A program made the translations under genes and the position numbers. A DNA stretch of 64,000 nucleotides from Euborellia annulipes (Eukaryota > Arthropoda > Insecta > Dermaptera > Anisolabididae): positions 62,001 to 126,000 of the forward strand of contig JAKCPI010010880.1 in the NCBI GenBank assembly GCA_023213315.1, written 5' to 3'. A model generated the notes under the pieces. That model was given only the letters and a program-made list of their open reading frames with translations. It was not told the origin of the DNA and made no database searches. Every line of letters begins with the position of its first letter. The stretch's first letter is position 1. Positions 6,591-55,471 of this stretch are shown here, piece by piece.

Positions 6591-9500
6591 CTGCGAAAAA
6601 GAGAAATATATATTTTAATTATGTTGATATTTTTTCAAAAATGTGGCGTAGGAATTTAGGGAGTCGGGGAGACATTTGTTTAAATAGAAGGTCATTTATT
6701 AAATTTCTAAATACAAAAAGTTTTACTCTATAAAGGATATTTTAGTCTTTTTGGCATCTTAGGCCCTATAGACTTTAAACCAATGGATCCCAACCAGTGT
6801 GCCCCAGGGCCCGTAAATGGTTGGGGTGCCGCGAGATATTGAGATAAACAAAAAAAAATTACGCTATAATTAAGCCAAAAGTCTTGTAAGGACTTGAAAT
6901 GAAAAAAAAATAAAATTAATTACTCTCATGCACGGCAGATGGTGATCCTCGATTCAGTTATACAAGTATCCGATGTACAGTGAGGGACAAGATTAAGTCC
7001 CACCCATGCGTTTTCTACTTGTGATTATTTCATTGTTTTTATAAAAGAAAAGAAAAATCTTTATTGGAAATTTTCTAGGTTTGAACCATGAAAGTTTCCA
7101 TTAAAAATATATAATATTTTTTTAAAAACAATAAAATAATCACAAGTAGAAAACACATGGGTGGGACTTAATATTGTCCCTCACTGTACTATCTATTGCA
7201 ATAGAATTGAGACTAAAACCCGATAGTTAGGCAGCCCAAATTGCATAAAGCTTTCTTGTCTGTGTAAGAAATACCCTTTTCAAAGCAGACAATAGGCCGA
7301 ACGATACTTTTTGACAAAAGAATAGAAATATTTTATTTTCAAGATATATCTAAATAAAGATTATCTCAATGTTTTAATCAGAAAAAAGTTTAGTGAGCGT
7401 ATGCCATTTGGGCTGCCTAACTACCGGGCTTTAATCCCAATACTATTGCAATTGATGGTATGTTTATGTAACTCAGTGACAGTAGTAAAGTTTACTATAT
7501 TTTGTTGTACGCTACTTATTAAATATTTCAATAAATTTACATATTAAACTTAATTTTTTTTTTAATTCAAGGAAGGGTGCCCCTAGTGTTTAATGTCATT
7601 CCCAACGGTGCCATGGACTTAGAAAGGTTGGAAAACTCATATACACAATATATAAATTACGATACAAATTGACCAGGCACATTTATTTATACCATTTGGT
7701 ATCCAAATGATTTAAATAAATATTCATTGGACTGCCTGGGGCCCAAACCCACTCCTCTTGGCTTTTAGATTTCATTATTAACATTTGTCAACATCTCTGA
7801 TCTCTCAGCCACGGGGGGTGGAAAATATATGAAATATAAAATAAGTTTATTCATCAAATAAAAATTAAAGTAAAAAGCGGAATTAAATAAAATAAATAAA
7901 TAATAAAATAAAATAAAAAAAACAACCTTAAAGAAAAAGTGCTAGGAAGAGACGATCGTCAATAGTTGGGTTACTCGAACAGAGATTACTCGATGCAAGC
8001 TTAGTAACAATTTATCAGCCTAAGGATTGGTGAAAATAACACAACAGTACATAACAAATAAATAAAAATAAAAACATAAAAAACATAATAGAAGAATAAA
8101 TATTTTCTTACCATTGAAGATTTATATCTCCTTTGTATTACTTGGCGGGTTTTTGGATCTGAAAAAAATCATCATCTTATTAGTATTTTTAATAAAATCT
8201 TTAAACATTTAATTCAATTTTAGATTAGTTTTCGTGCAAATAGACCAAAAAAAATTAATATTGATAAAGAATAAATTTAAATGAGAGTGTTGAAATTAAT
8301 TCTTGAGCGTATGAGGATAAGATGGGAGAAAAAATACAGTCAAATTATGAGGTACTATTTTATATGAATTTCCGCACAATAAATTCTTCATAAAGCGGTT
8401 CGTCATAAATTAGGTTTGCTCTCATAATAAAATTATATATATAAATATATATCTATATAAATATTCAAGAGAAATTTTCTCGGGTAAATCTCGTTGTATG
8501 TTCAGAATTACTCGATGTTTCGGTTCTCCCTTTGGAGACATTTTTAAGAGAGAAGGGAGTTAGGAGGTAATCCCCGTAAACAACCCTCCTCCGGGTCCTT
8601 GGGCCTTGGTGTAAGGGTGCTGGCCATGGGCGTAGCCAGACATCTTGTTGGGGGGGGGGCAACCCCCGTTAGAGCGAGAGGGGGTTTGCAATTAATATAT
8701 ACATAGATTATTAATTATTTATTTAAATAAAAAAAAAAATTAAATTAATGTAGTGGATTGCGGCGTTAAAAAAAAATTCCCAATGGGAAATATATATATA
8801 TATTTGTTTTTTTTTTAATTTTTAGGGCAAGCCAGGGGGGGCAAAGGCCCCTCCCTGCCTTCCCCTGGCTACGCCCATGGTGCTGGCCCTTTATACCAAG
8901 GGTCGCGGGTTTGCATCCCGTCTCATGCTACAATTTATTTCAATTGGATTGGATACCACTCAATTGAAATAAATAGGGAGGGGGTCTAAATGGCCTTCCA
9001 TGCCGAAAAAGACCTTTAATGAAATTTAAAAAAAAAAAAAAACCCTCCCCTCCATCATTACCACCTAACTCCCTTCACTCATGAAAATGGCTCCAAAAGG
9101 AGAGCTGAAACGTCGAGTAAATCCCAAGCGGCATAACCCGAGAAAACTTATCTTTGCATACATCCGGTTGAAAAATATAAATACTGTACAACGTTTCGAC
9201 TCACTCGAGTCGGAGCAAGTGCACAATACTTGAGAACGGCTGCAAAATAAGAAGTCGATACGTTGTACAGTATTTATATTTTTAATAAAATTATATATAT
9301 ATATATATATGGCCTATGTAAATATTTAATATATAAAATATTTCTAGATAATTTCTAACAGAGATTAATTTTATTTGAAAATATATTTTCCTATTATATT
9401 TTTTAGGATAAGATCTTGGGAATGAGAGGTTTTCCTCCCCCTTCCCCTTAGTGCAGGGGCACTCCAGAAATTTATTTTATTTTTTGTGTTTTTAACAAAT

Positions 9501-12500
9501 AAGTGAATACTTACTAAATTCCTCTAATACGAAAACGCCTCCTTTTTGTGTAAAACATTTTCTTATATGATCAAGTCGAACAAAGAACTGAAACCAAACA
9601 TAGAATATTTCAGTAAAGTTGTTAAATAAAATTTTAATTAAAAAAAAAAAAATCAAATATACGAATGTATTTATAAATATAGCATTATATAATTTGGATA
9701 TATTAAAATTACATACCTTGTTTATCTATGGGAAATATATTATAATGGATTTATATAGTAATCGGGCTTTCGTGTCTTAAATATTAAGAAAGGCTTCTCA
9801 AAATTATAAATAAAGAGAACAATTTTATAAATTTATGTTGTTTAAATTTTTTTATTAAAATTTTAAGAATGCCTTTCGAATTAAATATGAATGACAATTG
9901 ACATGTGATAAGGAAAGCGAGCAAGCGCTAAAACATGCACATGTGCGAAAGCAAAGCCATATCTCAAGAAAAGCAACAACAAAGCTCACAAAAATTAATC
10001 TAAAAAAAAAGAAGCATTTTGCTTATTAATAGAAAAGAAGAAAGTAAGATAGAGGATTAAGAAATAGAGATAGAGAAAGAACCAAAAGAAAAGAAGAGGA
10101 AGAAAGGTAGAATTTAAGATTTGATCTACATTAAAAAAAATAAATAAATAAATTTTCGCCAAACAACGATTCACTACAAAAATTTTTTTTTTTTCTTAAC
10201 TACAATGGTTGCGTCGGAACTTTGAGAGATGGCCAAATTCTAATAATAAATAAGGATAAATGGAGTGCAAATTTTGTTTAAAATAAAAAAAAAACCTCGC
10301 TAAAGAGATTTTAGTTTTGGTGATCTTATCTTTAAGATTAACATGCTATTTAACTTTTTTTTTCATTTGGTTAATAAAAGTGTGTAGCTGTATGTGGTAA
10401 TTTTAGTAATTAAAAGCTAAGAAAAACCGATAAAGTCAAGAATGTTCAAACCAATTACCAAAACACTACTAAAATGGGCAAAAAGAACTACTAAGTCCTT
10501 TGAATATAAGCATGAAAATGTATCAAAAGAAGTGTATCAAAAGCATGGAGGAGGGGAATGAGGGAATCATACAACTATGTAGCTTTAATCTTAAGTGATG
10601 CTTAAAATAATGTGTGTCTCATAATATGTTTGTGTGTGTATATAAAAACGTGTCTTTTGGCAATTAATACTCATGTGGGGAAGGGAAGAAAATTTCGTAA
10701 AAAATATTTAGGTTTAGATTATTATGATTTTTTTTTAAATACCTCAAAATCCTGAATTCCCCGCGGGCAAATAGGTTGTAGCGTGTAATCGATGCACGAA
10801 CAGAAACACAAGTAAGAATTAGTCAACCGATTTCAACAAATAAATAAATATATGTATATATAATCACTAGAAAAAAATTTTTATCACGTATTATATATAA
10901 ATATATTTATTGTTCAAATTCAAAAAATATATACACTGGTTTTGCAAATGTTCAAAACTTATATTTTTTTTTTTTTTGCAATTCCAAGGACCATCTCAAA
11001 AAATTCCACGCGAGACAAAAAAAAATGGGTTTCTTTAGCCGATCATATATAAATATTAAAAAATGACCGTCTAAAAATAACCCAGAGAAAGATAGAGAGA
11101 GTGAAATAGAGAAAGTTAATGATCTTATATATATGTATATATATATTTATATAAATATATATTAATACGTATATAATATAAAAAATGATAAAGAGAAAGA
11201 AAGATAGATAGAGAAAGAAAGAAATCAGAAAAAAAAATTTTTAAATTTAATTAATATTATTATTAATATTTTCCCACGGAGAAAACATGCCATGTTTATT
11301 ATAATTATAAAATCGAAAAATAATATTAATAAATTTTTTTATGTGAAACATTAATAAGTAATTTAAAATATATATATATATATCTATAAATTGGGATTCA
11401 GGTGTGTTATGTGTTTTTTTTTTTTTATGAAATATTTAAAACATTAAATCTAGAACGTCATTTTAGGGTGAATTTATACATATATATATTTATATAGAAG
11501 AAATATGTATATATGTATCAAGTTAGGATTAAATAATTTAGTATTTATTTTTATATATATAAATCTAACTACATTAGGATTATTTAGAGCCTTTTATTTG
11601 AACCCTTGTCTAAAGGTGAAATAAGTGTATTTAAATAAAATTAAGTGGCTACCTTTTTAGAATGTATATCTTCCAAGAACGAGCCATTTACTATCAAAAA
11701 CAAACACTAAATATAAATTCGAGTTAAGAGAAAGTTAAAGAGAAAGAATATAATAGTTAGAGAAAGAGAAAAGATTATCATGTATTTAGATGCATTAAAT
11801 TTGCATCTATATACACATTTAATATATAATATATATTAGGGAAAAAAAAATTTATGAAAGAAATATATTTCATTAAAATATATGACAATTTTTGAGAGGT
11901 CCTTGCTTATTAAAAACGATAATAAAAAAAAAATAACATTCAATTAAGAAATAGAATAAATACACAACAAACAAACAACATTTGAAATATTGGCCAAGGC
12001 AAAGGAAGGAGAAAAATTCCCTTCTCTGCCTAAAAAGAGAGAAAAAAAAACAGATTTATATTGAATAAAAAGAAATGTGTTGTTCATATAAAAATTACCT
12101 GATATGAAGGATTTTATTTATTTATTTTTATGACAAGAAACGAAATTTTTTTTTCAGCGTGCTTTTAGAAAAGAAAATAATGCGCTTTTTAAGTTTAAGA
12201 AATTTATTATTATTATTTTATTAATTAGTCCCCACTTAGTAGTATAATTATAATCTATATCAGGGTTTCTCAAATTATTTATAGCTGCGACACACTTTTA
12301 GTAAGTGTAAAATTTCACGAAAACCAAAAGTACGAATAGCACTGTATAGTAATAGCACTTTATAGTATAGTACTATAGTTTACAAATGCAATATTACTGG
12401 TATATCTGGAAACAGCAAAAAATAATATAATTTTTATTTGTTTTAAGTAAGTTTAATAATCTGTATATGTACAGTGAGGGACAATATTAAGTCCCACCCA

Positions 12501-15500
12501 TGCGTTTTCTACTTGTGATTATTTCCTTGTTTTTATAAAAAAAAATGAAAATCTTTTTTTGGAAATTTTCTAGGTTTGAACCATTAAAGTTTCCATTAAT
12601 GAATATATAGTATTTTTTTAAAAACAATGAAATAATCACACGTAGAAAACGCATGGGTGGGACTTAATATTGACCCTCACTGTACATTGAGGGACAATAT
12701 TAAGTCCCATCCATGCGTTTTCTACTTGTGATTATTTTGTTGTTTTTAAAAAATATATATTTTTGAATTAAAACTTACATGGGTCAAACCTTTTCTTTTA
12801 TAAAAACAATGAAATAATCACATGTAGAAAACGCACGGGTGGGACTTTTTTTTAATAGCTTTAACTCCCCTACACCAAGCTCGAGAGCCTTTTTTAAAGG
12901 GTGGGACTTAAAATATCTCTCACTGTACATAACAAAATTATAATTTTTAAAGAAAAATATACATTTTTAATGCGATGGGTGGGACTGTTGTAGAGAAAAA
13001 GTTTTTTATACGGGGCGTCTGAATTTAAAATCGTTTTTTTTTTTTTTTTTTAAATAAAATACAATTTATTATGAGACAATTATAACAGAATATTTCTGCG
13101 ACAAAACTGAAGCTTGATCGCGACACACTAATGTGCACAAAGTTTGAGAAACACTGATCTATATTATTATGAGAGTCCTTCATATCACCTACTTATACTT
13201 ATTTTCCCAAAGTTCCAGATATAATGTCTTAAAAAAATATATTTAAGACCACCAGTTTTTTATTTAATTTATTATAATTTAAAAAATTTAAAGGAATTTT
13301 ATATTATTAAAGTGTTTGTTAATTAAATTTTTTTTAGGGTATATTTTTAAAATTAAATTATTTATTTTGATTAGGTAAGATTATTTTTTATAATACATAT
13401 ATCAAAAAAAAAAAAAAAATAATAAATAAATAATTAAAAAAGCTCTGGGCCTTAGGAGAAGCCTCGATTTCAAGGGTCAAAAATTCTGTGCGAATAAAAT
13501 TTATTCAAATTATTTGGTATCCAATATAATTTGAATAAATAAGAATTGGGTCTAAATGGCTTCAATTAGCGAAAAAAAAAACCTTAAAAATATGATTTAC
13601 GATAAAAAGCGCATAATCTTCTTTAAAATAAACAACATATAATAGTTTTTGTAGCTAATTGAAATTTTGTAAAAGAAATGTATAATTTTTTTTTTTTTTT
13701 TAAATAAATGTTTTATTGTTTAATTCGAATAATGACATATTCTAGATAATGTTTGATTCAATCCTTAGGAGAAATCTGAGCGAAAAATAGCAAGTGAATA
13801 TATAGATATATTCTTCTCCAATATTTTTATTTTATTTCAATATATTTTCTTATCCCCCCCCCCCCCCCAATCGTCAAAAAAGATGACCCTGGTTCGAAAA
13901 GTGACCTTTCTGGGGCTATCTATGACTCTAAAAATTTGTTAAGTTTCTAAAGAGATATTATATATGTATTTTTTTTTATGAGAATTTATTAGGAAGTTAG
14001 ACCTGATATAAGGCCTTTTTAAAAACATGTTTGGGAATGAATAATATTAATAAATAATTTCTATATAAACCAACTGATGGGTATCTTTTTACGAGTAAAG
14101 TTAGAGATCAAGTTCAGATCAAATGTTTATAATTTTTAGAAATCTTCATCATTCAGAAGGTCTATCGTTGATTTTCAGAGAAATGCTTTTCAGTACTTTG
14201 ATTTACAATAAAAAATATAAGTATTCATAAGAAATAAAGTTAAAGATTTTTACATTATTTATTTAATCAACACAGCTGACGATTCGGTTCCGTGTTTGAA
14301 CCATCTTCAGATCAAAAGTATAAAATCCACTGTGACACTTTCAAAATGAATTTCGCCAGCTCTGAAGATTGTTCAAACACGGAACCGAAACGTCAGCTGT
14401 GTGGATTAAATAAATAGTGAATGCGTCTCTCATTTTTCTACCTCTTATGAACATAACATCACAGATATAAATTATGTTTTTTAAAAAATATAAAATTAAG
14501 GGGGATGAAACCGAGCACAGTGATTCAATCCTTGTATACTCGATCTTGATGGATTCGGGCACCTTTGGTGCAAGTTAATTTGAGAGGCTGCGCACCGTTA
14601 ATTCATGTCAAACAATTTTGTTATTTTTGATCTAATATTTAATATTTAGGGTTTATTATTTTGCATGTCAAGCCTACCAAAAAAAAAACAGACTAGCAGC
14701 TAAATTTTTTTCTTTAAATATTTTATTGGGCCTACCTTTCGGGCTCGATAGAGGCCATTTTCAGGACCTAATAAGTGTCAATAAAGTATATATATATATA
14801 TTTTGGATTAAGCAGCTATGTGTAATTATGGTCATCAGGTGAGAGATCTTGCAATGAGTCCACCATTACAGATAGCTGCTTAATGCAAAACACATACTTT
14901 TTTTGATACTTATTGGACCCCGAAAATGATCGAAACGTCGGCCCAATAAAATATTTAAAGAAAAAAATTTGGCTGCCAGCCTCTGCTTTTGCAACCCTCC
15001 CTTGATACAACTCAACAGCCACAATATTTTATTTTTTAATAAAATAGAAAAGATAATATTGGAGATGATCTATATCTATATATATATTTTAAATGTAAAA
15101 GTTTTACAAAAAAATAGTTACCTTCAGTCATTGTTAATAGTTTTCTATGAATGTTCGAAGTTCGTGTCGTTAGGTCTTGAAAAATAGTTTAAAAACGTCG
15201 AATAAAGAAATATGAACTGAAGGATATATGCCTACCTTGCTGTTGGCGAATAAGAGTCCTACGCCTTCCAGGCAAACTTGGAGAAGTCCTCCTTCGCCTG
15301 TTCTCATGTCTTGTACAGGAAATTCTCCTCCGAGTTCAACGCCGGGTGTAGCTGCTGATCCACGGGCAGCCGCCCTTTCCATAGCCTCTTTTATACAATA
15401 ATATAATTCTTTACACTGAAATAACAAAAAAATATCAATTAATTAAAACAGACAAAAAAAGTATATTATTAGGCCTCATATTTATAATTTGTGTTTATAA

Positions 15501-18500
15501 ACTATATATTTCTTATTGAATTAAAAGAAGAAAATTAAAAATATTTATTTCCTTCAAATAATATAAATATAGCCTAGAAAATTTTTTGATAAAATCACCG
15601 AAATTTTTTAAAATTTTAATTTTATTAAAATTGTGATTTTATTTAAAATTTTTAAAGCTTTATAGTAGATTTGTTTTTGTTTTATACTATTTGAACATAT
15701 TAAATTAATTTTCTAAAAAACTTTTTTTTGCTCCCCCCCCCCCCTGATTCAAATTCGTTCCGGCGGGGGGGGGGGGGGGGGGGGGGGGGGGCCCTGAATT
15801 TGGACGGGGCATTCGATGCCGAAAGACCTTAATTAAAAAAAAAAAAACTTGGAATTAACCAGACTATTTTAAAGAGTTACTTATTAAAGAGAAAATAAAA
15901 TATTTATAATAATTTGAGAAAGTTAGGGTTTGAATTTGCTTTATGACCCCTGGACATTAACATTCTTGGTCCGGTTCTTTAGGCGACCTTGGAAAGGTAG
16001 AGGTCCAAAATCGGAAAGTTCTGGTCCGAGTCCATGAGGATCAAAAATGCTCAATTACAATAAAAAGATATTTAATCATTTAAACCCTTGGGCTCTATTT
16101 TAAATTAAAAGTTTTAATTACCAGACCCTTAAATGTCCAGACGTTTCCAGTATTTTATTTTCACTTAAAACAAATAAACAATTTACTTGCCTTTTTTGTA
16201 TAATATTTATGTAGTTGTGTTTGTCCTCCGTTTCGTCTCCAAAGACATAAAACACGATTCTTTGGACTATATGTCATATTAACTAATCTTTCGAACCACC
16301 ATCTTTCAACGATTGTTCCATTCACAGAGCGTAATACGAGGCCATCTTCTCGAACCTCTAGGAATAATAAATCGCCACTATGATCAACACCCGCATGTAC
16401 TGTGAACGATTGTCGGTGCATTTGTCGTGACCCAAGGGGTTTTAAATCGATATCATTGCCGTGAAGATTATTCAACTAGAACAAATAAATAAATTATGAG
16501 ATATATTATAATTCCATTAATTTAAATAACATTTTACTTTACCTGGTCTAGAAGTTCGTTAACTTCTTGGCTATATACAAGACCGATATGGCTCTTACCC
16601 AATAATCTTCTTACTTTACGTTTTATTTCTAATTTATTTACATTCATCATAACCATAATTGCAACAAGATTATATAACATAGTAGATAATAGTCGATCCT
16701 CATCATGTTCAAGGCGTTTTCTTTCTGTTTCACTTAAAGAATTATATCTGAAAATATGAATTTTATAATAATTTTTTTTTTTCTAGTAAAAAATTTAATA
16801 TTCAAATGAAGAAAAAGATTTTATTCCGTGTTATTTTTGACCAACGTTTTAGTCCCAGGGTATCATTTTTGAAACCGATTTGAACCACTCTCAGCTAACA
16901 GAAATGGCACCCCAATCTTAAACTTTCTTCCTTCAAATATCAACGCATCCCCTTTAAGTAAAATATTTGTATAACAAGACTGCCTTCTCTAACAAAAGAA
17001 TCATAAACCTACTTGATTTCAATTAATTTCTTAACCAAAATCATTGGAAATTTTTAATTATAAAAAAACCGTTTAGTTTAGTTTTTGAACGAAATTTTTA
17101 AGTTTATTTAAAGAGTTTTTGAAAATTAGTATAAAATCTTATTTCTCGCGTTTCACAAAATTTAGCTATGCAAAAAATGAAATTTTAAATATTAATTCCA
17201 CTCACAACATAAAAATACTATCAAAGATGTTGATAAGAGAAGTGGCTGTTCAGAGATTAAAATGATGAAGGGAGAGAGGATGTCAGCCAAAAAGGAGCCT
17301 CTATCGAATAAAAATCTCCACTAAGAAGACGTTTCGGGTTTAATTATTATTATTGCTCATTTCAGCTCTAAAGAACTGATGATGGATTTATCTAATTAAA
17401 CCCGAAACGTCTTCTTAGTGGAGATTTTTATTCGATAGAGGCTCCTTTTTGGCTGACATTCTCTCTCCCTTCATCATTTTAAAATACTATCAATTTTATT
17501 ATAAGGACATCGGCCAAAAATAAATACTTTTGCGTATTATCCGTTTATTTGTAAATATTTCTGAAATAATAATATTTAATGGCTGGACATATATTGAGGA
17601 AGGATGTGTAAATGTAGGCAGCCAGAAATAAAAGACGCTCTCAATTCCCTTTGAATGTCCAGACGTTTCGGGCAAAATTTATTCGCCCATCCTCAGTGAA
17701 CTATTCTAGTGGGAGAGAGTTAAGTCTCCTTTGGTATACATAGTGGTTGTTAGATTCTACTATGTATTCTATTTAATGTGACAATATGATGATAAATGAG
17801 TTCTTTGTTATTAGAACTTTTTGCTATTTTCATAGTCAAGATACAATCAAGTAACAACCACTATGTATTAGGGTTTGGACACCGGTGGAAACCGAAACCG
17901 GTATACCGGTTTTTTGGCTAATTTTCAAAAACCGAGAAACCGAGTTTTTCGCAAAAAACCGAATTCGGTTTTTTTTTTATTTTTTTATTTTTTCTTCAAT
18001 AATACTTGTATTCAAATTTATAAATTAGCCCGTGATCCATGGCTCAGAGAGAAGATATTACAATAGCTTCTAGTAGCTTGGGGTTTCGGGTTCGCTTCCC
18101 GTTCCAAGCGAGAAAAATTTATTTCATTTGAATTGACTATCAATCATTTGAAATAAATAGGGATGGGGTTTAAATGGCCTTAGATGCCGAAAAAGACCTT
18201 GGACAAATAAAAAAAAAATTTATAGATTATTTATATGTTTTGTCCTTTTTTCTAATACTTAAATAATCTATATATAATAATAGCGGAGTGTCGGTCTATC
18301 TGTCCGTCTGTCTCGCTCTGTTTGCCCAACTTTTCGTTGGAATTTTGAAACAGAAATTTTGCAGTCTTATAGAGGACGTTATGGAGAGTTCAGGAAAAAT
18401 ACTCGGGTCCCGAAATTCCTACAATTTTTTGAGTTATTAATTCATAAAGTTACGATTTCTCCCATAGGAAATGTATAGAGAAATTTATGTATTTTTTGTA

Positions 18501-18557
18501 TTCTATGAATGTAAACAAATCCTCAAGCAGGCACTGGATCAGAATAGTAGTAATAAT

Positions 18558-18611
<54 letters not shown>

Positions 18612-21600
18612 CCCCGAGTTTGGCGTAGTAAGTAGCGTGCCTACCTCCTATACCAAACGTCGCGGGTTCGGACTCAGGCAGTCCGATGATTTTATTTAAG
18701 CCATTTGGATACCAGATGGCTTAAATAGAAATGCCTGAGGGTTCATTGCTTCCCAGTATTTATCATATAATAACTGTATTTGATAATTAAATTTTATATA
18801 CATTTGAGACTTGGCCGTGTTGACTAATGAGCATCATACAACTAATATGCAAATTTTGTATTTTTTATATAATTTTGTATATGTTTATATATAACAACTC
18901 TATCTGCATCTCAATGGTGTGCATCTTGAGTTTGCCAATAATGTAAGATCTGATGTTTTTATTATTTAAAAAATATTTTATGTTGTTGTATTACAATTAT
19001 TATTTTTGCTCATTTCAGCTCTAAAGAACTGATGATGGATTTATCTAATTAAACCCGAAACGTCTTCTGAGTGGAGATTTTTATTCGATAGAGGCTCCTT
19101 TTTGGCTGACATCCTCTCTTCCTTCATCATTTTAAAATGACTATCAATTTTATTATAAGGACATCGGCCAAAAATAAATACTTTTGCGTATTATCCGTTT
19201 ATTTGTAAATGGGAGTTTCTGAAATAATAATATTTAATGGCTGGACATATGAGGGATTGAGGAAGGATGTGTAAATGTAGGCAGCCAAAAATAAAAAACG
19301 CTCTCAATTCCCTTTGAATGTCCAGACGTTTCGGGCAAAATTTATTCGCCCATCCTCAGTGAACTATTCTAGTGGGAGAGAGTTAAAGTCTCCTTTGGTA
19401 TACATAGTGGTTGTTAGATTCTACTATGTATTCTATTTAATGTGACAATATGATGATAAATGAGTTCTTTGTTATTAGAACTTTTTGCTATTTTCATAGT
19501 CAAGATACAATCAAGTAACAACCACTATGTATGTATACCAAAGGAGACTTAACTCTCTCCCACTAGAATACTTTGCCCGAAACGTCTGGACATTCAAAGG
19601 GAATTGAGAGCGTATTTTATTTCTGGCTGCCTGCATTTACACATCCTTCCTCAATATTTCTGAAAGTTTATGAAAGTTGCATTCATGGAATGCTCAGCTA
19701 TGGGAGGAATTAACGATTTGCAAAACATCTGTTGATTGTACTGAGGATGATTCTATATCACTGGAAACGAAATATTTACAAATAAACGGATAATACGCAA
19801 AAGTAGTTATTTTTGGCCGATGTCCTTATAATAAAATTGATCATCCTTACGGCCATCTACAACCAATAAAAATACTATGCTCCTCTAATGTAACAATCAA
19901 AATCAATTCACTAAACTCTCTTTACCTTTCCATCATTTCATTAGGTCCTTGGTCCATTCCAGCCATGTCTCTTTCCTGAGATACGGCATCCAAAAACGCA
20001 TCTTCCCAAAATTGCATTTGGTCCCAAAGAGCACTTCTCTCTTTACCAACAAGGCCCTCAAAAAGATAAGTACGTCCGGCATCAGGTGATGGTGTTGGAG
20101 AAGTATTAACAATGTTCCCTCCATGATAACGAAAACCAGTGCTTAGTGATGATTTCGAAGACCAGACGCTCGGAGTCCTTTGTTTTACAGGTCGAGGTTG
20201 CTGAAGAAAACGCAATTATTAAAAATCATAAAAATAATTAAAAAAGCTTAAATAAAGGATTTTTAAAATTTGTGAGAATTCTTAAAAGTAATGTAATTAT
20301 TATCATTTCTTTATTTAAAAGGGAAATATAATATGAAAAATTAATAAAGATGAGACACTTATGGGATTGCATGCAGGCAAACATGTGTAGCATAACTAAC
20401 TAAAAAGCCAGTCCTGAAAAGCATCTCCAAGAATTTATAAATAAACTGGAAATTATTTCAAATTATTAAAGTGGAATAGTTTCTAAATTTCCTTTTTTTT
20501 TTTTTTTTTTTTTTAAATAATGAAATTTTAAAATGGATAAGAATTATAAATTTTGGATTTTCAAAATAATTAAAGATCAAAAATCATTTTATTTTTTTGT
20601 TGTTATTTTATAATTCTAATCTAAAAAATACTTTCTTTCTCTCTATATATTTCATATATAGGGTAAGAGAAAGTTAATTAAAATGACTAGTCTAAAAAAA
20701 AATATTTGTAAAAGGTTCGGTGCATGCAGTATAAAAGCATTAGAAAAAAGTTAAGAAAAAAATAATTAAAAATTATAGAATTAGAATATAGAATAGCAAA
20801 ATAGAAGAGCTAATAAGGAAGAACTTCAGCCAATACTTGTGTATTATTTTATTTAGTGTATTTTGTTCCCAGTAATATCCCATGGATCCAGATCCGAAAA
20901 AAATTTTGTAGACATACCAGAGGTTCTGGGGTCAGTAGAGTGTGTGCCAATATCAGTACGAAACATATGTTCAGTAAAACCTATTCTATTCATTATTTTT
21001 TAAAGACGTAGTTTGTAAATTTTTAATGAAATAAGAAAATATGAAAACTAATACTTATAATGGCTAAAGTCCTTCCTCATCCTTTTAAAAAATGATTAAT
21101 CAATAATTTCTATAATTTACATTAAAGTTTATTAATACAGATTTTACATATGGTACATAACTACAGTGGTTAAAAGAGAAAGAAAGTTCGGAAGAAAACA
21201 TGTTAAGAAATAACCAAATTAAGTTTTTTTTAACATTATAATAGCCCTAAAATGCTTTAGTACAGGTTTGACAGCTGAGTAGGGTAACCCTAATTGGTAA
21301 TCAAAATAAAGATCTGAAACGATAAAATCTAATAAGAATATCCCCCCTCCCCTCATCACCAAAATTACTTCAGCTAATATGAGATATTTGATAATATTAA
21401 TTAAATCCATTTTCCATTCTGATCTAGCCTGATCAGAAAAAACTTTTCTTTTAATCTTTTTTTTTTATTTTGAAAATCCAAATTTGCTTTAGAAATATCT
21501 ATAAAATGACTGAATATTTCCTAAAATGTTTATATACGAGGTGTTTGTAAAACGCGGATAATTCTGGGGATGGTTATATTGGTTAAATTGAAGAAAAATG

Positions 21601-42600: not shown

Positions 42601-45600
42601 TGTCCCTTAATATATACAGTGTATATGGGGTATCGATTAAAGTCTATATGGTCCAAGATGCAGAAAAGACTAAATAAAAAAGTACCTCCCCTCTCCTGTA
42701 GCCGAGTTGAAAATAGTGACAAATGTCAATATTTATAACTTTATAAGCCAAGGGATGTGAGTCCGACATCCCACAACATCGATTACATTTGGATGGTATG
42801 AATAAATGTGCCTATAGGTGCTGCCAACAAAGATTTCTAAAAAAAGTCGGAGATTTCAATAAAATTCATATATATTATGAGGATGTGGCATAAGGGCAGC
42901 CAAGGCAAAAAATAAAATAAAAATCTATTTTTTGTCCATATTTTATATATATATTATTTTACATTTTTTTTTTTAGTATTCGAATCTCGTTTCTGGCTTT
43001 TTATCGTAATTTTTCTTCGGATTTGTGATATGAAATGAATTTATTATGAAATTTCTAAAAAAAAGCCGGAGATTTTGGAGGATTTAGGAGAGCCGGAATA
43101 AAGCCGGAGGGCTGGCAGCATTGGTGTCTACCATGTTATAAGGCCTAAGACTATTTAAAAAAAACAACTGAAATAGAAACTTTTCTAAGTTGATGAAAGA
43201 AGGGTGGAGGCAGGAATTGAGCCTCTAGTAAAAAAATTATTTTTCGGGACCGTTCGACATGCTTTAGTAACGTCCCGATTATTAGAGGCTCAGTTCCTGA
43301 CTACATTCTCCTTTTATCAATAACTCTCAGAAGCAGAGTGTTATTGGTATAAAAAATAATTTCAGCACATATTTTAAACAGTTGGAATTTGGTTTTAAAA
43401 CAAGAAAAAAAATACTCAAATTAGAAAATAAGTTGATAAAGGAATTGACTATATTTTTCCTCATTATTATAAAATAAATACCTGAAATTCTTCTTATAGA
43501 GTAAGAAGCTTGCAGGGCAACCAATAACAAATGGCGTTGGCGCAAGAAGTAATTGTTCAGCACACGCCATACAAGTAGGCAACAATGGTATCACCGGAAA
43601 CATATATTCAAGTGGGTAAATGAGTGTTACTAACGCCATTACACTCATACTGAGTGCATTATAGTCTCTAGATTGAAGAACCAACTTATTCTCCAATAAA
43701 ATTAAAGTTAAAACACGAATACAACTTTCCACTCCAAGGAGTTCCAATGGTAAATGAAGTGGAAAATCTACAAGGGAAAATCGTGTGTGGTCTGGTAAGG
43801 CAAAAACCATTGGTGGATGAGTTGCACTTGAAAGTAATTCCACCTGGAAAGAAAAATAGACTTTGTAAACAAATTATATTTTGAAAACATAGTAAAAAAT
43901 TCAGCTTTTGAATTTCTCGAAACAAATTAAGTCTCGAAGGGAGTGCAATTCGGTTAGTTAAGGCGCTTCAGGAGGCAAGATGTTCCCATGTTTTTGCCGA
44001 TAAGATGGCGTTAGGGGTCTTAAAAATTTAGCCAAAAAGTCCAACTATTACGAAAATTTGCCAACAGATGGCAGGATGGTAGGACTATATTTTATCTCAT
44101 GTATTTGCTTGATTTTTGTTCATCTTTTAATAATAAGTAGTTTATAAATATTAGTATATATCATAGCATTTATAACAGTATCAAAATATATAAATATAGG
44201 CTTAAAAGTGATCTGATAATGCCGGCTGTTATAAGAGTACTGAACTGTTTGGCCGTTAATTTTTAAATAAATACAAAATTTATTTATGACTTGGTCACCA
44301 CTTTTTTAATTATTATAGGTTGATTGTTAATGATTTTTACATTTTAGATTTAAAAAAAATTATAATTTTCATAAAAGAGTTTTTTTGCATTTTCTATAAA
44401 TATAAAAAAAAATATTTTTGAATTAATCGTAATTAAAAAAAAGCAAAATGCTCACGAATTCAAATCATTTAAAAATAAACCACATAAAAAAATATTTTAA
44501 AATGCCTCAGTAGTTTCGGACTAATGATTCAATGTGCCCTCCTGAAGCCAGTGGCGTCATTTGGAGGTGGGGAGGGGGGCAGATGCCCTGAATTTAAAAA
44601 AATCTTTTATTATTCTAAATAAAATACTTCAAAATACATTTACGAGTATATAAACTGTACAAAATTAAACAATTAATTAATTTAAATATCTTTTGGCCAA
44701 ATTTGTGTAACTATTTGTAAGTAAATAAAAAAAAAGTTTGCCCCCCCCCCCCCCCCCCAAGAAAAAGATGAAATCACGCCTCTGCCTGAAGTCCCTTAAG
44801 TCAATTAATTTTTTATTATCCAAACCCTCTATTATTTATGTTAATTAAAAATACTCACTTCCACTCGCGTTTGACCAGGGACAGGAACCGGGGCACTGAG
44901 AAGACGTAATATCCAAGTTTCAATTTCTCGGACATCATGAAGAACAATTGAAGGAGTCGCATCGTGTGCTTTTCCTGTTAAAACTGACCACACAGTATCC
45001 CTGAAAATAATTTTAAATAATGTTAAGATGTCTTAGAGATTATTTAAATAAAATTGAACTTTTAAAAAATTTAATTATTCCATACCTTACTAATTGTCGG
45101 GAAGCTCCTACTCGTTTAGGGGAAGTAGTTTCGTTGCAGGCATCGATGAGTTTTTTTAATACAAAAAGGCTTTCACGAAAAAGGGAAAAAAACGGATGAT
45201 GAGAAAGAAGACATAGAGATGTCAATGAATGGCTTCGAACTCTCTAAAAATGATCAGAAAAAATATTAAATTTTAAATTATTTAAATAAATAAATTTATA
45301 TATATCCTACTTGTCTTCTACGAGTAGCTCTTGGCGAAGGGCTATGAGAGCCTCCAGATTCACTATCGCCACCAGCACAACCAACCATTAGACGTGGTCC
45401 AACAAGAGCATCCGAATCTCGTCTAGGACCACTTTCGCGTTCAGAATCGGAAGGTGCCACATTGCTGCTCCTGTAGTCGCTAACAGACATTGAGAAACAT
45501 TAAATATTTAAGTAGAAATAATTATAAAACGATTGAATTCAGCCACTACCTGCTGAAGGCGCTATCACTTGATTTTTCCATTGACTTTCGCCAAGATTCA

Positions 45601-47435
45601 CGACGAAATGTAGATGATCGTCGATCATTTCGTCTGTTTCCTGTAGGGCCAGTGCCGGATATCCCTGGCCCTCGTTCAACTGGCCGATAAAAATTAACAC
45701 AAATTCCATAACGCGTTTTGCCTAAAACAAAAAAAATTCCTTAGATTAAAAAACCATAGTATGACTATTTTTCAGATTTTGATTATTATTAATATTAATT
45801 AATAATAAAATACAAATAAAAAAATTGAGCTATACAATATATCGCACTTTAAAACACTTAAGACTAAAATTTGTTTCCAGAATAGCGTCTCAAACTGAGG
45901 TCGCTTCCTAGTTTCTGAGAGGGTAAGGTTATCGCACATGATTCTTTCTATACCTTCCTAGAATTCCAAAAAGGGTCACAATATATTGATATAATAATTA
46001 ACATCTCTCATTATACAACAAAATTTTTATAGTTGGATGGTGTGGTCTGGTACTACTATATATATATAAAATTCAACAGGTTTTACTCACTTGTCAGATT
46101 AAAAAATTCAAATCTCTTGAATTATATATATGTAACAAAATTATTCATTGAGATGAAGTTGAATTAAAAAGGTTATTGAGAAAATACACCAGTGGTTGCT
46201 TTCCACATTAAAATAATTTATTTGGCAAATATTTCGCAATCAAATTATCATCAAATTATATATATGTGGAGCGTGTTACAAATGATTAAGATTTTTTGCT
46301 TTGAGAAGCCATTCTATAAATTAGAGAGTCGTTTTTATTGTGCAAGCCTCTGGGGGAAAAATTATATCTGTAAGTATCTGATATATTTGGTTACAATGCC
46401 TTTCATAAAAAATAATTTTTCACAGTGACCCGCTTGAGGAGCGCAAGTTCTATTACTCTTGGTAATTAAGTGAAAAATTATTTTTTGTGAAAGGCATTTT
46501 AACCAAATATATCAGATACTTACAGATGTAATTTTTTCCCCAGTGGCTTGCACAATAAAAACGTCCTCTCTAATTTATAGAATGGGTTCTCAAAGCAAAA
46601 AGGTGTGACTGGCGCACAGCACACAACTTTCTCTTCCCTTCGGTAAGAGAAAGTTGTGCACCGTGCTGGTCACACCAGATTTTTTGTGTCGAGATATATT
46701 TAGTTTCCGATAGCACCTTAGTTTCAAACTTGCATTTTAAATGTTGACTGCTTGAAATAAACTATGGTTATTTTTCAAAATTTTAATCTCATATTTGGAC
46801 ATTTTATACACAATATAGAATCGTAAATAAATACAAAATTTCATAAGAATTGGAAAAAAAAATTTTAAATGCGTAAAAAGTTCCAAAGGGGACCCCTTTT
46901 GAATCGAAATTAACATACAAATCCCCATAGGAAATTAACATTAGGCCTATGAGAGAAGGCGGAGAGACAGGCGATAATGTTTGCAAGTGAGAGAGAGAGA
47001 GATATATATGTTTTCTCCTAAGCAATTAAAGACACAAATAAAATAAAATAAATGGGAATTTAAATAATAATTGATTTTTAATCTAATAAAAAGAAAAAGA
47101 TTTAAATTCCGTTACCATGGCAACCAGTTCTATCTTTCCTATGAAGAACAAGAGTAAAGTGGTCTTCAGAAGATTTCAACGGCAAAATGAGAATATACAT
47201 TTTAAAGAGCATCTAAAAAATATTTGATTTATGAATTTAAAAAAAAATCCTTGGAGGGAATTTTGAGAAAATCGAAAAAAACTAAAAAAGTACATCAGTA
47301 AAGTACTAGTACTTGTTGGCCGATTTTGTTCAAAAGCTTATTTTGAGATTCTTCAAAGGTACCTAAGTTAAATATAAAATTTCAATCCGGTAGCTCAATT
47401 CCTTCATGCTAAAAATCTGTCCACACATACAGACG

Positions 47436-47478
<43 letters not shown>

Positions 47479-48991: not shown

Positions 48992-49055
48992 TATGATTTT
49001 AGAGTTGTCACCGGAGGTGGTGTCCACATGAATGTGACGACATCCTCTTGGCTAA
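48992..49055 (-). other. MADD: MADD 5' UTR part of exon 2
   Basis: Untranslated part of the start-codon exon. The acceptor is TTTTTTAG at 49057-49056; a second AG four bases on is possible. One out-of-frame ATG with a short frame lies in it. Confidence 0.6.
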
Positions 49056-49364: not shown

Positions 49365-49369
49365 AAAAT

Positions 49370-49808: not shown

Positions 49809-49816
49809 GATAAATA

Positions 49817-50062: not shown

Positions 50063-50070
50063 GATAAATA

Positions 50071-51505
50071 TATAGTAGAGTCTTGGTCGGGACTAAATGG
50101 GGCCGGCCCTACGCCGGATTCTGAAAATGCCGGATTACTCGAAAAATTTGAGATAAAAAAATCTGTAATCACACTTTGTTTGCTATTTTGCTGCAATGTC
50201 AAGAAGAAGTGGCATTTAAAAAAATTTTAAAAAATTATTTATTAAAGTGAAATTTTAGTTTTTTTTTTTTCTAATAATAACATGAATGCATTAAATACAG
50301 TAGTATCGTCAGTTGTCAAAGCCACTATTATTCAATAATAGTGAAAAACTTCGCTAAAATCACAATAAAATTAAAGTCAAATATCTAAAAAAAAAAAAAA
50401 TGGATGACGAAATAGTTAGAGTAGGGGGCGGTCAAATTTTTCAGTAAGCAGGCCAAATTTCAGAAATAAGTATCTAATTTTTGTCCAATGATGTAACTTT
50501 TTTTTTTTGAGAAATATAAAAGTTAACATTTTTGTCCATTTGACCTAGCTCCGCGAGTCGCAACATGACTCCCGGCGAGCTGCATGCGGCCCGTATCCTG
50601 TCCACCCTTGATTTAGAGGATTAAAATATTTGTTTTATTTATTTAAATTTGAATTTAATAATTCTAATCTCGGAAAGGTGGTTCGGAGGAACAAACCTAA
50701 TACCTGGTCGTCGAATAATGAATTGGGTTCATTTTATTATCTGACTCAAATTGAAAAGATAAAGGTATTCTTATTTTTTTTAATTTAAATTTTTAAATAA
50801 ATTCCAAATATTTTTTCTTATATATAACCCTTCCAAGGTTAAATACATTTTCTTCCGATTACACAATAGTATATTTGAGAATGTAATTTGTAAAAAAAAA
50901 AAAGTGGAAACTAATCCTACCTTCAGGAAATATCCGGATCACAAATAGAAATAAACTTGATTCAATTTTTTAATGGAATATTTCTTTAGTGTGTGAACTC
51001 TTAATGATTCTGACCGACTCCACGAAATGGATGAAATGGATCGACCTAGGAGGAGTCCACTGCGCACTCGCAGTAACCGGAAATCCTCCTCATCAGTCAT
51101 TAGAATCAAATATCGATGAATATCGGAGAAAAGGGCTCCTCTTAAAGAACACTCCATTTAAAGTCATCAAGATTTATTAGATTTTTTTAATGTAATAATC
51201 AATAGAGAACATTCTTTTTAAATATTTGAGTTGCTGCTCTTAATACAAACAAGGTCAAAATTAGAGACAAATCCATAAAACAATTTAATTCGTCCTTTTT
51301 TTAGGGGCGTCTGTGTTTAAAGGGCGATTGCCTTTTTCACCTCCCCCCCCATCACTGCTGGCTCAATGTCTCTGTTTCGTCACCTTAAGAAATCCGAAAA
51401 AAGGCGAGACAAAATTTTGATATGATTACACAGTTAAATCATATCTATGAAAATAATAATAATAAACTTAATACAATAACAATTATCGAGTTTTTGCACT
51501 TTGTA
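50071..51505. other. MADD intron, unidentified repeats
   Basis: Mixed AT-rich sequence. A plus-strand open frame at about 50989-51180 and its minus counterpart have no splice or homology support. Confidence 0.35.
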
Positions 51506-51511
51506 ATAGTA

Positions 51512-51698
51512 CAGTGAGGGACAATATTAAATTTCTACTTGTGATTATTTCATTGTTTTTATAAAAGAAAATGAAAATCTTTATTGGAAATTTTCTAGGT
51601 TTGAACCATGAAAGTTTAAATTAAAAAATATATATATTTTTTAAAAACAATGAAATAATCACAAGTAGAAAACTCAAGGGTGGGGTTGTCCCTCACTG
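51512..51698. mobile_element. Tc1/mariner-type palindromic MITE
   Basis: CAGTGAGGGACAATATTAAA to GTTGTCCCTCACTG between TA dinucleotides, with short deletions near both ends. Confidence 0.8.
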
Positions 51699-51965
51699 TA
51701 CATTATTGGGAAACTTTTACCTATCTCTGACGATTAGGGCCAGACGATAACTAATATAATATTATATATAAAAAGTTGAAATGACACCACTGGTATAGAG
51801 AATCTTTCATGGTGCAGAAGAGTTTAAATTTAGTGTAGGGCCTAGCCAACTAATATTTTAGAGGTCCTTCAAAATTAAAAAAAAAAATCAATGGTATTTT
51901 ATATTTTTTTAATTATTTCATATATTTATTAATGAAATTTACGAAATAAGTCGGAATCAATATAA

Positions 51966-52624
51966 ATCTTGGAAGGATTATATAAATTTTATTTATGCAG
52001 GTTGTTCGTTGCAGGACGATTGCATTGGAAATACGATTCTCGTAATTCGAATTTTTCGATGACTGGAAATCTTTTTCGTAACAGGAGGGAGAGAGAACGT
52101 TTTATAATTCGAACTAGGCCACTTACCCGAAAAAAATATTTTACAAACTCATTTGCACAGAAATCCCAAGGGGGCAGTTTTGATGATAGATGGGCCTATA
52201 CACGTTTTGAGTTCCCCTGAGTCCAAAAAAGTGGTTTTCGCATCATGACCTGTCTGTGTATGTCTGTCTGTTTGTGAACAAAATATCTCAAGAACGAAAA
52301 GAGCTAGGATGTTGAAATTTTATATTTAAGTTTGGTACCTCCCTGGCTCGTGACAACAAAGCTTTTGATCAAAATCGACCAAAAAGTACTAGTTACTGAT
52401 GTACTTTTGAGTTTTTTTTTTTTTTTTCGATTTTCTCAAAATTCGCTCTAACGATTTTGTATAAAATTCAAAAATCAATTATTTTTTAGATGCTCTTTAA
52501 AATGTATATTCTCAATTTGCTCTCAATTTAATTGACCGAAACTATTTCCAGTGAAGTGATCTACTGAATAAATCCTGTTCTTGCGACAAACAACCTGCAA
52601 AATCAAGTAATTCTTCCAAGATAT
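51966..52624. mobile_element. Foldback enclosing a dispersed-repeat copy
   Basis: Ends TCTTGGAAGGATTA plus GCAGGTTGTTCGTTGCAGG, inverted at 52580-52624. Inside, 52230-52520 is a reverse partial copy of the GTAAGAGAAAGTTGTG repeat. Confidence 0.55.
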
Positions 52625-53201
52625 GTATTTATAGAAGCTTTGAGCATTAGAAAATTCACTTATTATTTCAGAATAAAATACGCGCTATCTAGTAATTAAA
52701 GCTAGTCATCCACTATATGTTTTCCAACTTATTGAGTTGACAAATTGCGGCCCCAAATATTTCGAGCTCGGGCTTCCCTCCTCCCCCTCCACTGATGGAC
52801 TCCGTTGCTTGGTTATATCCAAAATATCGGCTTACAATTTTTTAGTTTAAGTTGGGCTGAATAGATTGAATTTAAAATGAGCTTTAAAGGCTCAAGGAAG
52901 AGAGGGAATGTGGATGACAATTAAGAGGTGACCGGACTAAGACTGATATTCTAAAAAAATTGAAAAAAAAAAATCTCAAAACTAGGTTTTTAATAATCAA
53001 AATTTTAAAAATGCATATCTTCCAAACAAAAAATGATAAAAAAAATACTGGCTTGCTCAACAGGATGTGTTCTGTACAAAACACATAAAAACTCAATTTT
53101 GACTCCGGTGAAGATTTGGTATCTTTTCATGTAGACAGATGAATGAGAAATAAAAATGCTGGAGGTACTTTCAGGCCAAATTTTAATACCACTATACAGC
53201 C

Positions 53202-53236
53202 GACGTTTCGGGGGACTCAACGCCTCCCTTCATCAG
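53202..53236 (-). ncRNA. Hammerhead-like ribozyme motif
   Basis: CTGATGA, one A, stem II GGGA/TCCC, GAAACGTC. Stem I: TAGTC pairs with GGCTG (one wobble). Core intact. Confidence 0.65.
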
Positions 53237-53300
53237 GACTAATGTGGTCTTAAACAATGAACCCTCAACGGTTTAGTCATAAGAAAATGAGTCAATAGTC

Positions 53301-53332
53301 CTGAAGGGAGGCGTTGAGTCCCCCGAAACGTC
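53301..53332 (+). ncRNA. Hammerhead-like motif with 3-base core deletion
   Basis: Inverted partner of 53202-53236, but CTGATGAAGGG has become CTGAAGGG. Everything else matches. The deletion removes essential core bases. Confidence 0.55.
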
Positions 53333-53449
53333 GGCTGTATAGTGGTATTAAAATTTGGCCTGAAAGTACCTCCAGCATTTTTATTTCTCATTCATCTGTC
53401 TGCGCCAGGCTTTCCCAATCCCAATCATCAATTTTCATCTAGACGGTCA

Positions 53450-54118
53450 CAATTAGATATGATCTACCTATTTTGACTTTAATTAAAATGGGGTATGTTT
53501 AAAAAATTTTGTTTAATAAAGATATTTCAATTATTTTGAAGTAATAATCATTTTGAGAATATTAAAATTTAATAAATTTTTATTACAGGCCTTAATTTTA
53601 TTCAATTAATGGTTTGACCTAAATTTGTTATAATTTTTATTTTATTTCTCTTTTGATAGAGTTTTTATTTATATGTAGTCTTACATATAAGTCAAATAAT
53701 TTCAATTGTTTTCTAAGACTAATTTTGTAATAATGATATTTCTAAATTCATAAGAATGGGAAATATTTATTTAAATTTATAAATTACTAGTTTGGGTAAA
53801 ATTCTTGAGTTGTTTTCTTTAGTGATATTAAAAGAAATTAATCTATCATATAGAAATTTCCTTGTCCTTGTCAGCAGTGATAATAATACAATTCATACAC
53901 ACGCGCACACACACTTCTCTCTAATTATCTACATAGATTTTACGTGTGTTTGCATTAGAAAATAGGTATTGTGAATTTTAAATTAAATTTAAAAAAATAT
54001 TCATGATTATTCTATTCTAAATAATTTTTTTTTTTAACACTTGAGGAAAATTATAATTGTGTAATAATTATTACAATAGTGTAATATAAAATTTAATTTT
54101 CTACAAAGTTTTTAAAAT
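53450..54118. other. MADD intron 1, no element recognised
   Basis: AT-rich intron sequence with a short CA microsatellite near 53898-53912. Confidence 0.35.
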
Positions 54119-54262
54119 AATCAAGTGTCGAATGGAGTGAGGTATTTGGACCATAAGCGGGCATCGATCGTGGACCCCACCCACAAGAGGGCTTCTGACG
54201 TCAGCAAAGGGAGCTATCGATTGCCCTGGTTGGACCTTTTCGGCCCTTTGTCCACCCTAATG
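54119..54262. promoter_or_regulatory. GC-rich block with a perfect CRE palindrome in MADD intron 1
   Basis: An island of balanced composition in AT-rich DNA, 250-400 bases downstream of the proposed first exon. TGACGTCA, the cAMP-response element, is at 54196-54203. It may be an intronic enhancer or an unrecognised exon. Confidence 0.35.
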
Positions 54263-54341
54263 CATAACAATTTCATTCAGATTATCTTCATTTACTTGTC
54301 ATAAGAATGAAGCTGATAGAATAATAATGTAATATTTGGTT

Positions 54342-54372
<31 letters not shown>

Positions 54373-54518
54373 AGAAAAAAAAGTTATAAATTTAAAAATT
54401 AAATTAAAAAATAAATTAAAATAAATTTAGAAAAATAATAATATATAATATTTGTCAATTAAAAATAAAGTAATAAAAGCAATACTATTGTTATAGAATG
54501 TGAAATAGTTAAACTTAC

Positions 54519-54650
54519 GAGTTAACGAGGAGGTCTCGTCGTCGTGTTGGCTCGGGAGTTCAACTTGCACTAACTCGCACTTGCTCAAAAAAGCGAATCC
54601 GCGAATGAACAGACCGAACGACCGGAGCGCTTATCAGTCTGCGTGGAAAA
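54519..54650 (-). other. MADD: Probable untranslated first exon and promoter region of MADD
   Basis: GC-rich minus-strand block ending in the strong donor CTC|GTAAGT at 54519. It has no ATG. TTCATTC at about 54607 fits the arthropod initiator (TCAKTY). No TATA box is evident. The 5' limit is approximate. Splicing to 49055 would put the start codon in exon 2. Confidence 0.5.
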
Positions 54651-55167
54651 CAGGAGTAAGAGAGAGGAAGAGGTAAAAAAAGGCAACTCAAATATCAATA
54701 CAATACGAATGAATAGATTTAAATAGGAAAAAAATTTTTACGAGCTATTTAAATTAAAATGTTTAATAATTAGTAGTAACAATACATGGCCAGTGGAGTA
54801 GTTAGAGTTTAAACCCACCCTAATACTGTACATTAAGTTTGTTACCCTTCCCAAAAAAAATCATCAAATTAATGTTATTTTTCTTAATTAAAAAATTTGG
54901 ATAAATATGAAAACAGTTATCGTATATAAACAGAGTTGGGTAGTATCCAGTTACAAGTATCTAGATACCCAAAATCAGTGTATCAGTATCTTGTATTTAG
55001 ATACTAGGTTTTAAAAAAAGTATCTAGTATTTTGTCTTTGGATACTTAAAAATTGAGTATCTTCGACTTCAAAAAAGTACTTTCATAATTGATTTTGGAG
55101 TCCCTGCCCCCAACCCTTCCGACTTTGGCCTATAAAATTGTTTTTTATTATAAACTTTGGAATATGA

Positions 55168-55471
55168 TTTATTTAATGTAGAAAGTGGCTGTGTAGAATT
55201 GAAGAAAGGTTGAAGAGGAAAGCAGCCAGGCAGGAGCCTCTAATAAATTAAACTCCTTTTATGCAAAATGTTTCGGCCGATTTAATTATGCCATCTTCAG
55301 CTGCAACGGAGTTTTTTAGTAATTAGAGTTGTCAACAATCTGATCATAAGCTTGTTGATTTTATAATAGCCTATAAGATGGCATGATTAAATCGGCCGAA
55401 ACATTTTGCATAAAAGGAGTTTAATTTATTAGAGGCTCCTGCCTGGCTGCTTTCCTCTTCAAACTTTCTTC
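55168..55471. mobile_element. Hammerhead-containing foldback, perfect 12-bp TSD
   Basis: TTTGGAATATGA at 55156-55167 and 55472-55483. Arms include GGCAGGAGCCTCTAATAA-like sequence and its inverse. Minus motif 55267-55300; degenerate plus motif 55371-55405. Confidence 0.82.
55267..55300 (-). ncRNA. Hammerhead-like ribozyme motif
   Basis: CTGAAGA, one U, GGC...GCC stem II, GAAACATT. Stem I pairs TGCAG with TTGCA. Cleavage triplet ATT is allowed by the UH rule. Confidence 0.6.

Follow-up and report, generated by a model that had tools for sequence, protein, structure and literature searches.

We analyzed a 64-kb window of Euborellia annulipes DNA (the whole stretch, positions 62,001 to 126,000 of contig JAKCPI010010880.1, numbered here from its first letter) in which hammerhead-like ribozyme motifs recur. 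The DNA is eukaryotic and AT-rich, with a GC content of 25 to 33% across the window. Through this analysis, we found that the motifs belong to about 13 short insertions built as inverted pairs, with arms of ca. 50 to 190 nt separated by 14 to 485 nt, as judged by aligning each region to its own reverse complement. On our preferred reading, to which we assign a probability of roughly 80%, the motifs would sit in short pieces of the pseudo-long terminal repeats (pseudo-LTRs) of Penelope-like retroelements, inserted as head-to-head inverted pairs with no open reading frame (ORF). If so, the elements are of a type already described, and their insertion marks are unusually clear. A preliminary description of this DNA had proposed nonautonomous Penelope-type foldbacks, a proposal that is supported by the minimal hammerhead, the covarying stems, the head-to-head arms, a one-sided tail and flanking duplications.

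Hammerhead motifs in the window

The presence of hammerhead-like motifs was confirmed by pattern scans, shuffles, covariation and a covariance model. The exact pattern CTGANGA-N6-30-GAAACGTC matched eight times in the window and in none of 100 dinucleotide-preserving shuffles. A scored scan, combining a core with at most two mismatches and pairing of stems I and II, returned 11 matches against a mean of 0.58 in 12 shuffles; ten of these are copies of the motif, and one (at 21564) is unrelated. The window thus lies far above shuffled AT-rich sequence, which had been named beforehand as a possible source of as many matches. A covariance model built from 11 window motifs, aligned by reference, identified 26 copies with an expectation value (E) below 0.03, spanning 8.49 to 55.43 kb, and two additional window matches at E values of 0.8 to 0.9. 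Of the 26, 11 served to train the model, two are nearly identical copies of these, and the other 13 lack independence from them, being mostly their inverted partners. In every pair with both motifs detected (11 of 11; elements J, C, D, A, E1, F, G, E2, D2, H and I, described below), the minus copy is on the left and the plus copy on the right, an arrangement initially reported for most pairs; an inverted pair allows just two layouts, this one or its reverse.

The hammerhead core CUGANGA ... GAAA is present, with substitutions in some copies (J, E2 and one copy of F). In the alignment of 11 motifs, only ACGT or a variant of it lies between GAA and position 17, and the A15.1-U16.1 pair that closes helix III before H17 was not found in the window motifs. 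Judged on sequence, the motifs are predicted minimal hammerhead ribozymes, in which stems I and II are present and helix III is reduced to the palindrome ACGT. Pairing of this palindrome would require two copies of the motif. Cervera and de la Pena (2014) is reportedly the primary work on Penelope hammerheads and on the minimal type I hammerheads dispersed in animal genomes.

Stems I and II differ between families yet still pair, as had been suggested, and two separate tests detected their covariation. Across the 11 aligned motifs, 87.9% of cells are paired, compared with 24 to 47% when the partner is slid by 1 to 3 columns. Two-sided changes affect 32 cells, compared with an average of 10.5 in shuffles, and neither this count nor the covariation score was equaled in any of 500 shuffles; two-sided change was seen in all five stem I pairs and in two of the four stem II pairs. 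Within motifs, 51 of 55 stem I positions are paired (no equally good result in 20,000 permutations), as are 36 of 44 stem II positions (two equally good results in 20,000). Because elements E1 and E2 are related, the 11 alignment rows are not all independent. An additional unpaired A or T directly before stem II also proved to be real; stem II pairs at 36 of 44 positions with this base and at 19 of 44 without it.

The extra base before stem II also occurs outside the window elements. Scanning the viral contigs of IMG/VR for the core plus an extra A or T yielded 17 contigs. Fourteen of these (L003 to L016, which we take to be phage), all with T, represent 10 different motif sequences and in addition fold a stem III and a stem I, a combination reached in 0 to 8 of 500 trials with shuffled downstream sequence. 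The remaining three (L001, L002 and L017) do not form both stems and were taken as chance. The pattern without an extra base matched 46 contigs, many of which do not form the other stems, and with an extra G or C it matched five, four of them also among the 46. When run on 20 of 64 viral loci (184,666 bases), the covariance model from the window gave 12 matches at E values up to 1 (16 to 26 bits), of which 11 overlap the sites by which the loci were chosen. A search of the viral contigs for related Penelope copies revealed no foldback, returning instead three-stem hammerhead motifs and unrelated matches. The excerpted text of PMC3088659 contains no mention of an insertion at the extra-base position.

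The preliminary description had named the Rfam hammerhead models as a possible source of refutation. These models gave no match in the window at gathering scores, and none at E values up to 10 over 8 to 57 kb. However, a positive control weakens this null. Rfam 15 likewise found no hammerhead in eight viral loci bearing three-stem motifs with the extra T; a first scan covered seven such loci at gathering scores, and a second covered seven loci at E values up to 1, five of them with the extra T and four of these shared with the first. The sole hammerhead matches in the second scan were two subthreshold HH9 matches in L033, a locus without the extra base. Since Rfam is equally blind to these viral motifs, its silence in the window says little. 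Judging from the viral motifs, a complete hammerhead may accommodate an unpaired base after A9, and this form is probably underreported in Rfam searches. Rfam microRNA families also matched the foldbacks (mir-2513, MIR2593, MIR6136 and others, among 27 matches over 8 to 57 kb). We rejected these matches, all of which lie under the gathering scores; because of this, and because several match both strands of a palindrome, we regard them as an effect of shape.

Insertions and their ends

Flanking duplications of 9 to 16 bp accompany eight elements (A, B, E1, F, D2, H, I and K). Those of A (13 bp), E1 (12 bp), F (14 bp), D2 (16 bp) and I (13 bp) are exact, and the score of each was equaled in at most 3 of 400 random placements. 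Between arm and duplication lies a tail of ca. 25 to 34 nt, on exactly one end in all eight elements with both ends read (A, E1, F, D2, H and I by script; B and K by eye from the printed sequence). Five elements read by script (A, E1, F, D2 and I) retain the word GGCTG in the arm, and in these the distance from this word to the end of the element is 57 to 64 nt on the tail side and 26 to 36 nt on the other; two of the ten words are variants (AGCTG or GGCTA, in one arm each of F and D2). If each end were picked freely between two sites, finding one of each in eight of eight elements would have a probability of at most 0.004 by simple arithmetic.

The word CAGCC occurs in the tails of seven of the eight elements, counting CGGCC in K. 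We considered a start-site hairpin pairing GGCTG in the arm with CAGCC in the tail, but shuffled tails did as well in 192 to 732 of 2,000 trials in seven of the eight elements. In K, the stem carries a double change (GGCCG/CGGCC), and shuffled tails did as well in 43 of 2,000 trials. An arm-tail hairpin at the start site stays a suggestion.

Four elements with exact duplications lie on the minus strand and have their tail on the left. Element A (17212 to 17493; duplication at 17212-17224 and 17481-17493) has arms at 17257-17346 and 17393-17482, a truncated minus motif at 17308-17385 and a plus motif at 17356-17431. Element E1 (21985 to 22261; duplication CATGTAACTAAT) has arms at 22027-22120 and 22155-22249, a minus motif at 22075-22147 and a truncated plus motif at 22135-22200. 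Element F (30851 to 31158; duplication ATTCAAGACAATAT) has motifs at 30942-31016 (minus) and 31023-31097 (plus), and element I (55155 to 55483; duplication CTTTGGAATATGA) has arms at 55201-55297 and 55375-55471, a minus motif at 55247-55320 and a truncated plus motif at 55359-55425. On the plus strand, with the tail on the right, are D2 and H. Element D2 (47799 to 48476; duplication TTAAATTAAATTCCAT) has arms at 47814-47888 and 48361-48435 around a 472-nt spacer and motifs at 47862-47937 (minus) and 48316-48387 (plus). Element H (53124 to 53444) is flanked by a 13-bp duplication with one mismatch and has arms at 53133-53244 and 53293-53401, a minus motif at 53182-53256 and a plus motif at 53281-53352 with a 3-nt deletion in the core.

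Some insertions are nested. Element K (17211 to 19878, plus strand) consists of outer arms at 17489-17561 and 19769-19841, a tail at 19842-19867 and a decayed plus motif at 19721-19796, and a directed search identified its exact 11-bp duplication, AAAAATACTAT, at 17211-17221 and 19868-19878. Its arms are some 2.2 kb apart because of insertions nested in it; both A and B lie within K. Element B (19216 to 19665, minus strand) has arms at 19256-19416 and 19516-19655, a minus motif at 19305-19379 and a 9-bp duplication, TTTCTGAAA, at 19216 and 19657; about 24 nt of the core and stem II are gone from its right motif copy at 19577, and a second left half of B is found at 17591-17716. Segment 17342-17868 has a second copy at 18995-19532, identical at 521 of 527 aligned bases; the repeat, a later duplication, copies half of A and half of B. 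Similarly, F lies within the spacer of element G (30615 to 31410), which has outer arms at 30662-30849 and 31213-31398, motifs at 30783-30853 (minus) and 31209-31279 (plus) and a possible 11-bp duplication, ACTTTTATTTA. The adjoining element E2 (31402 to 31532), whose motifs at 31404-31475 (minus) and 31458-31530 (plus) are of the E1 family, has ill-defined ends, by eye perhaps disrupted by G.

The remaining elements are C, D and J. Element C (14253 to 14419) has arms at 14253-14311 and 14361-14419 and motifs at 14258-14330 (minus) and 14342-14414 (plus). Element D (14684 to 14990), of the same family as D2 by eye, has arms at 14684-14835 and 14854-14990 and motifs at 14713-14784 (minus) and 14900-14959 (plus), and a tail-like sequence bearing CAGCC adjoins its right arm. 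Element J (8467 to 9154) has arms at 8467-8571 and 9057-9154, with decayed motifs at 8494-8567 (minus) and 9061-9134 (plus). Its 485-nt spacer contains other repeats; within 8571-9057, what seems to be a further inserted repeat forms an inverted pair around CCATGGGCGTAGCCAG.

Copying of the elements and alternative origins

Were the template cut by this hammerhead, the arms would begin directly after GTC. Instead, the shared arm sequence begins 6 to 91 nt 5′ of the predicted cut in all ten elements measured (A, B, C, D2, E1, E2, F, H, I and J), and the arms of D and G likewise extend upstream of it. Both arms therefore hold bases from upstream of the predicted cut, and the copied RNA was intact at this site. 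Most pairs combine a complete motif with one that is truncated, substituted or deleted in CTGANGA or stem II; the second complementary DNA (cDNA) may have ended, or been joined, in the folded hammerhead.

When folded alone, both strands of A, C, E1, F, H and I each form one long hairpin (−87 to −211 kcal/mol), with 112 to 244 bases paired across the center in sequences 167 to 271 nt long. Such hairpins would largely bury both motifs, which in place are thus probably silent according to these folding predictions. The preliminary description had also alluded to hammerheads that act as dimers. Within a single foldback transcript this is ruled out, as one copy is the antisense of the other and helix III could be built from ACGT only in a sense-sense dimer; long hairpins are predicted instead.

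One scheme that would account for these insertions is as follows. An element enzyme supplied from elsewhere would nick AT-rich DNA on both strands, some 9 to 16 bp apart. Reverse transcription would then start inside the RNA, on one strand about 57 to 64 nt past GGCTG, giving the tail, and on the other about 26 to 36 nt past it. Both cDNAs would run toward the 5′ end of the uncut RNA and be joined there, one usually passing the hammerhead and the other stopping in or near it. The enzyme family, the two-ended priming and the joining step are inferred, and on two-ended priming, taken alone, we consider the odds to be even. A purified Anolis protein offers a precedent (PMC11167929; for this and the other papers cited, statements refer to excerpts of the text). 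This protein cuts both strands of the target and extends them, favors AT-rich DNA and begins at two adjacent internal sites, which explain the tail; in vitro, its main substrate is uncut RNA. The Anolis hammerhead lies at the start of the ORF, shows no cleavage without protein and is dispensable for insertion in vitro. The end positions described above and the extension of the arms beyond the cut site are informative about Penelope insertion, in that uncut RNA is copied, from a different start site at each end.

The principal alternative concerns this mechanism only and is compatible with a Penelope identity. By self-priming, one cDNA would fold back at the hammerhead region and copy itself, and head-to-head pairs with palindromic junctions in Adineta vaga have been read in this way, with an antisense template (PMC3846280). 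The near-identical arms of A, E1 and H are what self-copying would give; however, two cDNAs of one RNA species would be identical as well, so that arm identity discriminates weakly. Moreover, a self-copied arm should carry the tail, whereas the second end stops short of it in eight of eight elements (in B and K by eye). We give self-priming appreciable weight, albeit less than two-ended priming.

Alternatives to the identity itself fare much worse. Retrozymes are nonautonomous elements with type I hammerheads that spread as circular RNA, and those of animals are short and low in GC content (PMC7229834), features that recall the window elements. However, animal retrozymes are tandem repeats (of 150 to 450 bp) and mostly possess helix III (weak in amphibians), whereas the window pairs are inverted and lack it, and we consider this origin very improbable. 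Remnants of palindromic DNA transposons, or miniature inverted-repeat transposable elements (MITEs), with hammerhead-like ends arising by chance would explain the palindromic shape, and a MITE-like palindromic family with ends near TACAGTGAGGGACAATATTAAGT is indeed present in the window (6975-7189, 12467-12687, 21638-21858, 51504-51705 and 59147-59360). Nevertheless, the covariance model matches none of these five members, which carry no hammerhead motif; the duplications of our elements vary from 9 to 16 bp, the tail is found at one end only, and the stems covary across unrelated arms. We regard a MITE origin as strongly disfavored. Finally, the notion that the motifs arose by chance in AT-rich sequence, which has nothing to commend it beyond the low information of the core, is refuted by the shuffles and the covariation.

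Several observations weigh against a Penelope origin or blunt the evidence for it. No reverse transcriptase or GIY-YIG domain was found in the 30 ORFs scanned among the window's 88 of at least 70 amino acids, although this is expected of a nonautonomous copy. In K, whose core is decayed, the shared sequence starts only about 3 nt 5′ of the would-be cut. Some duplications are weak when taken alone, being equaled in 66 (B, 9 bp), 25 (H, 13 bp with a mismatch) and 11 (G, 11 bp) of 400 random placements, and that of K is without a chance control. A search of the flanks of C, D and J revealed no convincing duplication, and the best repeat of E2 falls inside its own arm. Since some published Penelope insertions also lack a duplication (PMC3846280), this feature is not decisive either way. 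The tail of H is without the CAGCC word, shuffling gives the stem TGGCTG/CAGCCA no significance in seven of the eight elements, and exchanging tails among families had no effect (126 versus a mean of 124.4). Lastly, a coarse count of stem pairs with two-sided change (seven of nine) was equaled in 151 of 500 shuffles.

One broader, albeit speculative, possibility joins these strands. The insertions may be passengers of Penelope elements, akin to short interspersed elements, formed in one step as ORF-less, head-to-head pairs of pseudo-LTRs from two obligatorily different starts of reverse transcription on the two target strands, with the hammerhead serving as a stop or joining point for cDNA rather than as a cutter, and the motif may represent a hammerhead subclass, with an unpaired base after A9, that also exists in complete three-stem form in viral contigs and is missed by Rfam models. 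That all of this holds together we consider unlikely.

Host gene and comparison with known systems

A Pfam search of the window ORFs identified minus-strand exons of a gene resembling MADD/Rab3-GEF. Based on Pfam domains and the ORF list, the gene occupies 6253 to 49051 on the minus strand and includes exons for uDENN (48722-49051), DENN (43424-43873) and PH_MADD, the MADD C-terminal PH-like domain (15173-15442), along with a dDENN match (35474-36043) that scores under its cutoff. We extended the gene by eye through exon-like ORFs to ca. 9.5 and 6.3 kb, presuming a likeness to the MADD sequence. One search of the DENN exon against solved structures gave no match. The motifs had been placed in introns of one gene, and this is so for most; however, those at 53 and 55 kb are situated upstream of the exon with the start of the protein and so may not be intronic. 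Other large palindromes, at 46293-46601, 56207-56829 and 61324-61899, carry no motif and no clear flanking duplications.

Compared with known systems, the window elements most resemble Penelope insertions. In Adineta vaga, a typical Penelope-like copy has pseudo-LTRs beside which a further one lies inverted; one of the inverted copies may carry a 31-bp tail, duplications measure 8 to 10 bp in named cases, and palindromes mark the head-to-head junction (PMC3846280). The Pen families of this rotifer and the Anolis element PAc are like the window elements in their head-to-head pseudo-LTRs, a one-sided tail of ca. 30 nt and flanking duplications, and PAc also shares the hammerhead and the AT-rich targets. 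Unlike GIY-YIG Penelope-like elements, those in the window have no ORF between the arms, and their duplications measure 9 to 16 bp versus 8 to 10 bp in the published excerpts. The nearest Penelope case in these excerpts is the capture of unrelated sequence between solo pseudo-LTRs with duplications, a few instances of which are described in A. vaga (PMC3846280).

The viral three-stem motifs (L003 to L016) share the core and have a T directly after CTGANGA, ahead of stem II, but they possess helix III and a closed stem I, unlike the window motifs. According to reviews, Penelope pseudo-LTRs harbor minimal hammerheads that lack helix III, and such motifs are also dispersed in thousands of copies whose role is described as unknown (PMC6155905 and PMC7761336; see also PMC7229834). 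Like the dispersed minimal type I hammerheads (PMC7761336), the window motifs have no helix III nucleotides beyond the core and are present in many noncoding copies. They differ in that the surrounding element is delimited by inverted arms, a tail and duplications; the window motifs are thus traceable to discrete insertions, and this provides a simple sequence test for other dispersed motifs.

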